In this document: positions 24,047-26,968 of the stretch, in pieces
Numbering within the stretch: position 1 is the stretch's first letter
Layout: each line of letters opens with the position of its first letter
DNA from: a virus
Strand: one strand, 5' to 3'
Length of the DNA stretch: 34,254 nt
IMG/VR virus record: IMGVR_UViG_3300046167_000314
Span: 1-34,254 of that record
Notes under the pieces: generated by a model
What the model saw: only the letters and a program-made list of their open reading frames with translations
What the model was told of the DNA's origin: nothing
Databases searched by the model: none
Program-made: the position numbers and the translations under genes

Positions 24047-25922
24047 TCTCATTAACTAACCCGTTGAAAAAGCTGACACTCTCAGATATGGATGTCCCCT
24101 TCTTAAACTGATACCAGTCATTCGACGACATTTTGCCGATTTTGGCCTCAACAGCACTTCTCCAGTCCGCTTCACGGATGCCGGGTGCGCCATCTTCATC
24201 GTGTTCTGTCCAATTACCAGCCGCCAACATCTCTTGCAGCGTGTCGATTGCTGTCTGTTGTTTGGCACTACGGCGTGACTTTGGCTTGGGCAATTCGTCC
24301 ATTATGTCCAAAACCAAGCTGCTTTGCTCTTGTGCAAATGCGTCTTGCACAAATCGCACCTCACGCGCATTTAAGGCAATCGGTTCGGCCTCTTGCACAT
24401 CTTTCTGCTTTGCTACCTTTACAACGACAGATTGCGTCCCCTCAGTGCGTTTAATGGCAACAGAGGTATCAACAGCCCCCAACAAAGAAGAACTGCCACG
24501 CAAGCCTTTGTCGCTGTCCTTGCCGCTATGGTGAACAGCCAGAACCGTGCAATCGAACCATTCTTTCATTAGGTCGCATGACCGGATAAACATGCCCATA
24601 TCGGTTGCTGAGTTCTCATCAGCACCAGACCCGGCGAATGACCTTGCCAGCGTATCCACCACTATAAGGTCTGGCGATACACCGCCGAGCGTATCCTCAA
24701 TGGCGTGTCTCAGTTGTAACACATCTGGGGCATCTTCCATCGCCATACCAATGGGAGTTGTAACGGCATAGAACGGCACACCATCGTCATCTAGCTGCCT
24801 ATCCCTATGCCAAGCTTCCGCCCTTACAGCGATGCCTGATTGGCCTTCCATAGCCAAATAAACGACTGCTCCTTGTGATGTGGGTCGCCCGTTCCAGTCG
24901 ATACCGTGTGCAATCGACAACGCCCAATCAATCGCTAGGAACGATTTGAATGTTGCTGGTGCGCCATATAGCACCGCAAAGCTGTTCTCGATTAGGTAAT
25001 CCGCCACCATAAAGCTGGGCGGCGGGGTAGCCCTTAGTTCTCCGAGCGTCTTGACTTTGATTTTGCGCTCAATGGTTGCAGGAACTTCTGCAACGCTATC
25101 GGATATGCTTGCTGGCGCACTGTTTTGCTGTGGCGCAATGCGAAGGTCTGGAAGTTTTCCCTCTCGGCCTCGGATAATAGTGCTGGTAACTTTCCTCTTG
25201 AACTCATCTAATCCTCTCCCTTCGGCGTTCAAATCGCCTGTCCTGCTTTTTACTTTACGTTCATAAACTGGGTAAACATTCTCGACCATCCATTCCACCG
25301 TAGGAAATGTCTTATGCTCTCGGACATAATCACCGATTGAAGCCAGAACCATACGAGCCATGAACTTTTCACGACCATCAACAACATTGCCCCAAACATC
25401 AATATCAGAGCCACCCATAGGAGGCTCAAGGCTAGTAGTAGCCAGCCCTGTAGCTTGACTAGCAACCCTCGGTGGAAATAATGCGAAGTCTTCGTCATTT
25501 ACCCAACGATAACCTGTGCTGGCGGGGTGTATGACGTAACCGCCGTCACCTCTAACGTCAACACAGCCGTCAATACCAGCACGATTTCTAATGCCATCAG
25601 AGTGCCGATAATAATAGTGCCATCCACCTGATTGCGTCTCAGATACCTTAGTGATGCCCAAAAGTTCTGCATTGTCCTTTACCCAATCCTTACCTTGTTT
25701 GCCGTCTCTTACGTCAATGTCGATGACCGACACGCCGGAGACTTCTCCAGTCGGCATACCAATAAGAGCAGCGCCCGGCAAGGAAAATAACCGCTCAATC
25801 TCATCTGGGTCTTGCGTTGCTGATTTGAACCCGCCCTGACAAACAGGACGCTTCTTTACATCGCACGGGAAGACAGGGTAATCCTCTGCCACCTCAAGTG
25901 CTGTGCTTATAATATCCATCAT
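24018..25922 (-). CDS. Bifunctional PrimPol and RepA-like helicase
   Basis: 634 residues. Residues 8-150: a PrimPol domain (PF09250) with GVSVIDIDVRDG (Asp68, Asp70 metal site), TQSGGWHYYYR and GGYVIHPAS (His132). Residues 300-510: a RecA/RepA-type ATPase (AAA_25) with Walker A LYGAPATFKSFLA (Lys326), Walker B LIVVDTLAR (Asp423) and VHHSGKDSDKGLRGSSS. The C-terminus (residues 540-634) may be a winged DNA-binding part. It likely primes and unwinds phage DNA and may act at the local repeats. No phage DNA polymerase was found, so host polymerase is presumably used. Its start overlaps the methyltransferase stop. Confidence 0.9.
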   Translation of the reverse strand: MMDIISTALEVAEDYPVFPCDVKKRPVCQGGFKSATQDPDEIERLFSLPGAALIGMPTGEVSGVSVIDIDVRDGKQGKDWVKDNAELLGITKVSETQSGGWHYYYRHSDGIRNRAGIDGCVDVRGDGGYVIHPASTGYRWVNDEDFALFPPRVASQATGLATTSLEPPMGGSDIDVWGNVVDGREKFMARMVLASIGDYVREHKTFPTVEWMVENVYPVYERKVKSRTGDLNAEGRGLDEFKRKVTSTIIRGREGKLPDLRIAPQQNSAPASISDSVAEVPATIERKIKVKTLGELRATPPPSFMVADYLIENSFAVLYGAPATFKSFLAIDWALSIAHGIDWNGRPTSQGAVVYLAMEGQSGIAVRAEAWHRDRQLDDDGVPFYAVTTPIGMAMEDAPDVLQLRHAIEDTLGGVSPDLIVVDTLARSFAGSGADENSATDMGMFIRSCDLMKEWFDCTVLAVHHSGKDSDKGLRGSSSLLGAVDTSVAIKRTEGTQSVVVKVAKQKDVQEAEPIALNAREVRFVQDAFAQEQSSLVLDIMDELPKPKSRRSAKQQTAIDTLQEMLAAGNWTEHDEDGAPGIREADWRSAVEAKIGKMSSNDWYQFKKGTSISESVSFFNGLVNEIWMGMDGNP

Positions 25923-26968
25923 AATGCTCCCTCAAGCTGTTTAATTATTCTTCCGATTTGTTCTGGGATTTGCGGGACGACCGCGTTACCCAATGCTTTA
26001 ATTCTGTGTGACCGATTGGAAACCCCATTAGCCACTCGACCCACGTTGGGTTCAACTGCCCAGAAGTCGGCTCTGTTCTCGCCGCTTCGCTCAGATTGCC
26101 CCTGTAAGTCTCCGACCCGATGTGCCTGTTCTTCGGCGCGCCCTTGTAATCGCTGGCTGCTGGTGTAGGCCACATCCTTACGTCCGTTCTCAGGCTCTTG
26201 CCCTGACCTCCGCCCGTTGTCCCCTGACTGTCGGCTGCGTTGGGTGTCGCCCACATTTGCGGACTGCTCTGTATCTGTTTCCAAGCCTTCACCGTGTTCT
26301 CGTCCACTTGCTCTCGCAGATTGGAAGGCCAAGCCCTGCCCTTCCGAGCCACTGTCGCTTGCTTCACCAGTGACTGTTCCGACCTCTGTGGCAAGTCGTC
26401 CATCGCGCATGGTGTCGCCCATAGTGGTGGCTCTCGCCACCCACTGTTCATGCTGGGGGACATCTGATTGCCCTTCGCTGTTGGCGTGTGCAACAATCCA
26501 TACTCTGTCTCGTCTGTGCGGGGCATCGACACCGCAAGCTGGAATAACAAACGGCCTTGCGGCGTAGTCTTCGGCTTCCAAGTCAGATAGCACCTCGTCG
26601 AGGCCCATCGTGATGTGTCCAGCAACATTCTCGAAAATTCCCCAAGTGGGTCTGATTTCTTTAACAAGCCGATACACTTCAGGCCAGAGGTGACGGTCAT
26701 CTTCCGCGCCTCGCTGCTTCCCGGCAACACTGAATGGCTGGCATGGGTATCCCCCGACGATGACATCTGGTCGAACAATCCCATCTGCTCGGAGTTGCTC
26801 TCCGGTGAGGCTTCGGACATCATCGTAGATTGGTGTGTCAGGCCAATGTCGTCTAAGGACTTCTTGGCAGTATCTTTCGATTTCGCAGAACGCGACTGTT
26901 TCAAATCCGGCTTTTTCGAGGCCAATGCTAAATCCCCCTATACCACTAAATAAATCTAATACTTTCAT
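25919..26968 (-). CDS. dcm: DNA cytosine-5 methyltransferase
   Basis: 349 residues. Motif I DLFSGIGGFSIGL (5-17), motif IV GGYPCQPFSVAGKQ with catalytic Cys76, motif VI ENV (113-115), motif VIII PHRRDRVW (150-157), a long variable region (160-300) and motif X RIKALGNAVVPQI near the C-terminus (from residue 322). All catalytic elements are present, so it should be active. The variable (target recognition) region is hydrophilic and full of near-repeats such as NVGDTQRSRQSG and VAYTSSQRLQGR. A second conserved frame runs through the same DNA. A possible pseudoknot precedes its ribosome site. It probably protects phage DNA from host restriction. Confidence 0.9.
   Translation of the reverse strand: MKVLDLFSGIGGFSIGLEKAGFETVAFCEIERYCQEVLRRHWPDTPIYDDVRSLTGEQLRADGIVRPDVIVGGYPCQPFSVAGKQRGAEDDRHLWPEVYRLVKEIRPTWGIFENVAGHITMGLDEVLSDLEAEDYAARPFVIPACGVDAPHRRDRVWIVAHANSEGQSDVPQHEQWVARATTMGDTMRDGRLATEVGTVTGEASDSGSEGQGLAFQSARASGREHGEGLETDTEQSANVGDTQRSRQSGDNGRRSGQEPENGRKDVAYTSSQRLQGRAEEQAHRVGDLQGQSERSGENRADFWAVEPNVGRVANGVSNRSHRIKALGNAVVPQIPEQIGRIIKQLEGAL
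25945..26823 (-). CDS. Overprinted frame inside dcm with W-x-TP-x-A-x-D repeats
   Basis: In another frame of the same strand, open from 26925 to 25945; the first ATGs are at 26823/26820 (MMSEASPESNSEQMG), then 26784. Counting from 26925 it reads FSRMLLDTSRWASTRCYLTW (97-116), KPKTTPQGRLLFQL, YGLLHTPTA, LWATPCAMDDLPQRS, RKGRAWPSNLREQV, MWATPNAAD, MWPTPAASDYKGAP and LNPTWVEWLMGFPIGHTELK (291-310). I recognise these phrases from phage proteins linked to cytosine methylases, so this frame looks selected and is not a random shadow. There is no clear ribosome site; it may be reached by frameshifting or from a weak start. Function unknown, possibly target recognition. Confidence 0.55.
   Translation of the reverse strand: MMSEASPESNSEQMGLFDQMSSSGDTHASHSVLPGSSEARKMTVTSGLKCIGLLKKSDPLGEFSRMLLDTSRWASTRCYLTWKPKTTPQGRLLFQLAVSMPRTDETEYGLLHTPTAKGNQMSPSMNSGWREPPLWATPCAMDDLPQRSEQSLVKQATVARKGRAWPSNLREQVDENTVKAWKQIQSSPQMWATPNAADSQGTTGGGQGKSLRTDVRMWPTPAASDYKGAPKNRHIGSETYRGNLSEAARTEPTSGQLNPTWVEWLMGFPIGHTELKHWVTRSSRKSQNKSEE

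Follow-up and report, generated by a model that had tools for sequence, protein, structure and literature searches.

Exchangeable target-recognition modules set the specificity of the multispecific phage C5 methylases of the SPbeta/phi3T group and of Type I HsdS proteins. For the methylase M.EcoHK31I, the small polypeptide is reportedly encoded within the large one in another reading frame, an arrangement said to have been described by Lee et al. in 1995. C5 methylases comprise a large catalytic domain, with motifs I-VIII and X, and a small domain, with the target-recognition domain (TRD) and motif IX (PMC3404938). Two enzymes distribute these motifs over separate chains: M.EcoHK31I (E. coli, YGGCCR) has motifs I-VIII and X in its large subunit and motif IX in its small polypeptide, and M.AquI (CYCGRG) is a split C5 methyltransferase with motifs I-VIII in one chain and IX-X in the other (PMC3404938). 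A phage methylase gene has also been described that conceals an HNH endonuclease, encoded by an ORF out of frame with it (PMC11855218).

The stretch of DNA analysed here, hereafter called the window, is a viral record of 34,254 bases that includes head, portal, primase-helicase and RusA genes. Judging from sequence comparisons, we put at slightly under nine in ten the probability that it encodes, in a single DNA stretch, a two-polypeptide C5 methyltransferase made of a catalytic chain, alpha, and a chain carrying the recognition region and motif IX, beta. The literature that we searched contained no account of such a two-frame layout in phages.

A conserved gene in the second frame of dcm

The original prediction had singled out an open frame at 25945-26925 inside the dcm gene. 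This frame exists on the minus strand, in +1 relative to dcm, with TTG at its 5' end and 326 residues plus a stop, and all the phrases that had been quoted from its translation are present. The features of the locus, in window coordinates, are as follows.

25919..26968, minus strand: alpha (dcm frame), C5 cytosine DNA methyltransferase of 349 residues (PF00145, 2.1e-45)
25945..26823, minus strand: beta, the second gene, nested in the +1 frame (phrog_1008 match, selection map, start analysis)
26784..26803, minus strand: candidate beta initiation region, GGAG (26803-26800) 5' of ATG 26784 (start analysis)
26729..26746, minus strand: alpha motif IV PCQPFS with the catalytic Cys (sequence and coordinates)
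26461..26776, minus strand: doubly coding segment, in which the N-terminal region of beta (EARKMTVTSG...CYLTWKPKTTPQGRLLFQL) coincides with alpha motifs IV-VIII, both frames being below 1 in the selection map
26254..26421, minus strand: putative beta recognition cassette 1, WATPCAMDDLPQRS...NLREQV..., 98% identical in the nearest relative, L001
26173..26253, minus strand: putative beta recognition cassette 2, WATPNAADSQGTTGGGQGKSLRTDV, 96% identical in L001
26056..26172, minus strand: putative beta recognition cassette 3, WPTPAASDYKGAPKNRHIGSETYRGNL, exchanged between the window and L001
26005..26055, minus strand: beta motif IX-like box LNPTWVEWLMGFPIGHT, whose core residues vary little or not at all among 105 betas
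25970..25990, minus strand: alpha motif X GNAVVPQ, overlapping the beta C-terminal tail (sequence, and frame counts in relatives)

Alpha carries motifs I-VIII and X, with PCQPFS, ENV, RRDR and GNAVVPQ read in frame, and its matches to M.HhaI in the PDB span residues 2-164 only. Contrary to the claim that the dcm frame keeps all catalytic motifs, motif IX, which counts towards membership of the C5 methyltransferases, is missing from the alpha chain and sits in the +1 frame. A canonical motif IX was likewise found in frame 0 in none of the 162 relatives whose loci have motif X in the alpha frame. Alpha is devoid of the small domain, and beta holds the variable units and a IX-like box. This assignment of motif IX in beta is based on position and pattern; a profile alignment puts the box at the correct place, without significance.

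A frame of this kind might be a mere shadow of dcm amino-acid conservation and composition, as long shadow frames do occur and conserved dcm motifs force like residues in +1 (DDRHLWP gives MTVTSG). We consider this reading wholly improbable. Shuffling dcm codons between sites that encode the same residue gave longest +1 frames with a mean of 118 codons and a maximum of 253, and the observed 330 codons from stop to stop were reached in 0 of 500 shuffles. The second frame also matches the phrog_1008 profile (6.7e-38), so that the database search suggested for its translation did find a family, which was matched as well by 105 of 105 betas of relatives (alignment A4).

Other searches had a different outcome. 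No match to the window beta was found in Pfam, NCBIfam or PADLOC (the PADLOC scan covered four proteins), and Pfam searches with the 105 betas gave two marginal, unrelated matches only, with no nuclease or other credible domain. The beta sequence profile had no match in the PDB. AlphaFold2 models of beta alone, computed for the window beta and a compact relative, were poor (pLDDT 57 and 62, pTM 0.26), and a PDB fold search with the model of the window beta returned nothing credible.

Second-frame scans yielded at least 589 confirmed relatives in viral contigs and 231 in genome contigs, and in the loci kept and examined a C5 methylase is overlapped by a second frame. With a search method that imposes no +1 relation on its matches, the IX-like box LNPxWVEWLMGFP was in +1 relative to motif IV in 202 of the 206 loci in which both motifs could be placed. 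The four exceptions are L199, which has an apparent indel, the similar-looking L049 and L192, and L203, a frameshifted-looking locus with a divergent motif IV. In L199, L049 and L192, apparent indels move the beta motif IX or the alpha motifs to other frames, which could reflect sequencing errors or broken genes. We had considered L199 as a single-chain version and rejected it, as it ends in the beta frame via its apparent indel; the loci fetched included no single-chain version, in which one frame would hold every motif.

Between motifs IV and IX, the 162 two-frame loci have 0 stops in +1 versus 3.0 expected. By comparison, 19 ordinary C5 methylases with a recognisable in-frame motif IX, drawn from PF00145 genes surveyed across 117 genomes, have a mean of 9.6 stops versus 9.9 expected, and none of the 19 is open, which argues against a shadow. 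Most two-frame loci were gathered by beta similarity, favouring open frames, and openness alone is therefore a biased measure; the substitution tests described below are independent of it.

The same layout is present in phages N15, epsilon15, BcepC6B, PMG1, PAT1, RcMcDreamy, RCIP0114, JC01, R23.9 and Lc-Nu and in enterobacterial plasmids, the carriers thus including an E. coli phage (N15), a Salmonella phage (epsilon15) and Rhodobacter and Lactobacillus phages. Most records annotate alpha alone. N15 gene 58 (L275) and the epsilon15 methylase gene (L276) contain an unannotated beta frame with a IX box of the LNPxHSRWLMGLP type. In Pseudomonas phage PMG1 (L279) and Cronobacter phage JC01 (L282), beta is annotated and the catalytic alpha frame is left out. 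Both frames are annotated in Paenibacillus phage Shelly, with beta (gp56) named 'g55 internal gene'.

Two further loci have peculiar features. A Gammaproteobacterial genome (L269:108-2135) harbours in alpha an intein-like insertion placed precisely at the motif IV catalytic Cys (GSCP|CFPEGTLV...VHN|CQPFS), with Hint_2 and LAGLIDADG_3 matches. A single chromosome record of an uncultured Roseovarius has five two-frame methylase regions (L104-L108) with equal match values, possibly a repeated prophage or an assembly effect.

Selection in the two frames and the start of beta

We classed the nucleotide differences in independent pairs of loci (37 at 55-80% alpha identity and 10 closer ones, the latter agreeing within the beta span) by their effect on the alpha and/or the beta amino acid. 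The resulting ratios, which are approximate since changes were treated singly and of which SN/SS is unreliable given the few SS sites, indicate that upstream of beta the beta frame is neutral (ALT 1.05) and alpha conserved (REF 0.06). Over motifs IV-VIII, both frames are below 1 (REF 0.18/0.05, ALT 0.39/0.10). From VIII to IX, alpha is near neutral (REF dNN/dSN 0.73, or 0.85 in close pairs) and beta strongly conserved (ALT dNN/dNS 0.11-0.13). The IX box follows the same trend (ALT 0.18, REF 1.19), and in the tail past the beta stop the values are REF 0.08 and ALT 0.72. Inside the beta span, NN/NS of the +2 control frame does not fall below 1. Between the window and L001, 24 of the 27 differences in cassettes 1-2 fall at beta third codon positions, where dcm is free to vary; a shadow frame would not gather them there.

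The second frame is thus a conserved gene with purifying selection of its own and not a shadow, a reading refuted by the selection map, the ordinary-methylase control, the window-L001 differences and the staggered loci described below. This upholds two earlier proposals, that the frame is no random shadow (0 of 500 shuffles, substitution pattern, phrog_1008) and that it accompanies phage cytosine methylases, as a conserved protein-coding gene. Two others stood in part. The substitution test per frame suggested for dcm homologues gave conservation of beta from IV to IX as proposed, and dcm itself turned out near neutral from VIII to IX. Double selection, which had been thought to extend over about 900 bases, is real; given the ratios per segment, it is therefore limited to the approximately 300 bases of motifs IV-VIII, and for the 400 bases after them the dcm frame is largely carried along.

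Not all of the 327-codon frame belongs to the gene. The frame is indeed open throughout; the openness of its first 35-47 codons is due to chance, with no sign of selection in the beta frame (NN 0.113, NS 0.102). Because this upstream extension is without selection, we place the predicted start of beta at about residue 35-48 of the open frame, at ATG 26823/26820 or ATG 26784, not at TTG 26925. In the clade of the window, the frame is open further upstream by chance. In 130 of 163 distinct loci, a beta-frame stop is found just upstream, at -110 to -30 from motif IV; the first start after the upstream stop, determined in 129 loci, is ATG in 101 and lies mostly at -35 to -50 from motif IV. A Shine-Dalgarno core is present at 107 of the 129 beta starts of relatives versus 16.7% of control NTG codons in other frames. 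ATG 26784 is located 38 nt before the PCQ motif, an offset preferred among relatives. The Shine-Dalgarno sequence at the window's own beta start is weak and poorly placed, the spacing from GGAG to ATG 26784 being long.

Putative recognition cassettes and the staggered form

From the LTWK hairpin to motif IX, beta proteins consist of units that start with W-x-TP, with a median of 37 residues and 1-7 units per protein; the window beta has three. Its cassette 3 is 35% identical to cassette 3 of L001 and 73% to that of L004, and L001 in turn shares 88% identity in this cassette with L010. An exchange of the last cassette distinguishes the window from L001, its nearest relative. More generally, like cassettes occur with divergent alphas, in one case with 100% identity over 48 residues and alpha cores 54% identical, and 178 unit pairs are at least 65% identical while their alpha cores are less than 55% identical. 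Exchangeable target-recognition modules would be expected to look like this W-x-TP pattern. We lean slightly towards the view that beta is an exchangeable specificity subunit with 1-7 cassettes, in which recombination swaps change or add methylation targets, and that the alpha frame beneath is a passive spacer, kept free of stops so that translation arrives at motif X.

In at least ten loci (L029, L080, L114, L123, L174, L180, L193, L208, L212 and L214), the two frames are staggered: alpha lacks motif X, and beta has the recognition region, motif IX and motif X. The staggered alpha ends before motif X, in most cases soon after VIII, and frame 0 past the alpha stop is full of stops (read in L029, L080, L114 and L123). 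Frame 0, freed from having to extend to motif X, decays whereas beta is retained, which makes this form a natural knock-out of the alpha frame. A beta that stays open over a decaying alpha frame argues further against a shadow. The two genes overlap over motifs IV-VIII by 317-458 nt in the cases measured, and approximately 700-800 nt of beta extend beyond the alpha end (e.g. in L029, L080, L114 and L123). Homologues of the second frame independent of dcm overlap, which had been named as a test, thus exist for most of the length of beta, with motifs IV-VIII still overlapping.

An alignment pairs the motif X of the staggered betas with its counterpart in ordinary methylases (E 2.2e-5). As motif X lies inside beta in these loci, beta would therefore be part of the methylase and not a neighbour. 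Beta might instead be a real overlapping gene for a separate protein, such as a regulator, an anti-restriction protein or an endonuclease, with alpha methylating alone. Overlapping genes of unrelated function do exist, including the hidden HNH endonuclease of a phage methylase (PMC11855218). A beta outside the methylase is hard to reconcile with its motif X, alpha is without motif IX in all relatives tested while the IX-like box is in beta, and the Pfam searches with 105 betas revealed neither a nuclease nor any other credible domain. We regard this possibility as unlikely.

The layout also brings to mind a programmed frameshift from the alpha to the beta frame that would give one fused protein and no separate beta. 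The frames overlap by hundreds of bases, and in the staggered form a shift near the alpha end would produce the single-chain order I-VIII, TRD, IX, X. In the common form, however, the fusion would lose motif X, which is in frame 0; moreover, beta has its own start with a Shine-Dalgarno sequence, and its N-terminal region over IV-VIII, which a fusion would leave unread, is selected in the beta frame. A frameshift therefore appears even less probable than a separate protein.

A putative two-polypeptide enzyme among known systems

In the two-polypeptide enzyme that we favour, alpha would provide the catalytic domain, in which a spacer under loose constraint separates motifs I-VIII from motif X, and beta, translated from its own internal start in +1, would bring the small domain, with target-recognition cassettes of the W-x-TP type in series and motif IX after them. 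The two would assemble into a working enzyme in which beta picks the sequence to be methylated, and cassette exchange between phages would shift the methylation target. On sequence grounds, both polypeptides are most likely produced and bind each other, and the cassettes most likely contact DNA. The benefit to the phage is probably protection of its DNA from host restriction.

If so, many phage 'DNA cytosine methyltransferase' annotations may cover only half an enzyme, including those of such well-known phages as N15 (gene 58), epsilon15, BcepC6B and Lc-Nu. Tests of alpha expressed without beta would then be falsely negative for activity as well as target, and recoding alpha with synonymous codons would ruin the beta gene. 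The relatives would also form a natural series that shows one motif, X, changing from one overlapping frame to the other, with decay of the frame left behind. In addition, they would provide a case of recognition cassettes that evolve in one frame and drag the sequence of the other along with them.

Among described proteins, beta matches the phrog_1008 family ('DNA methyltransferase'), and Shelly gp56 is an annotated instance of this internal gene; their records give only a methylase label, with no motif division or recognition role. The hidden HNH endonuclease is a homing insertion, whereas beta extends over conserved methylase sequence and matched no HNH domain. Recognition modules are part of the same chain in the SPbeta-type methylases and of a separate gene in HsdS; here, they would be located in a frame that overlaps the catalytic gene.

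The staggered relatives (L029, L123, L174, L193 and others) share the division of M.AquI, with I-VIII in alpha and IX-X in beta, an arrangement also found in L080 and L114. They differ from it in that their beta overlaps alpha over IV-VIII and holds the recognition region, the variable region of M.AquI as published being divided between the subunits. The window is unlike M.AquI, as it has the embedded form with motif X in alpha.

The division of M.EcoHK31I, with I-VIII and X in the large chain and only IX in the small one, is matched by the window at the level of the published motif division. The small subunit of the window is in another frame inside the large one, as is reportedly that of M.EcoHK31I. 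The TRD of M.EcoHK31I was predicted in the large subunit, whereas here that part of alpha is near neutral and the variable cassettes are in beta; given this discrepancy, we class the window as a variant. M.EcoHK31I is the closest precedent, for motif IX on a second polypeptide, and M.AquI that for IX-X in the staggered form.
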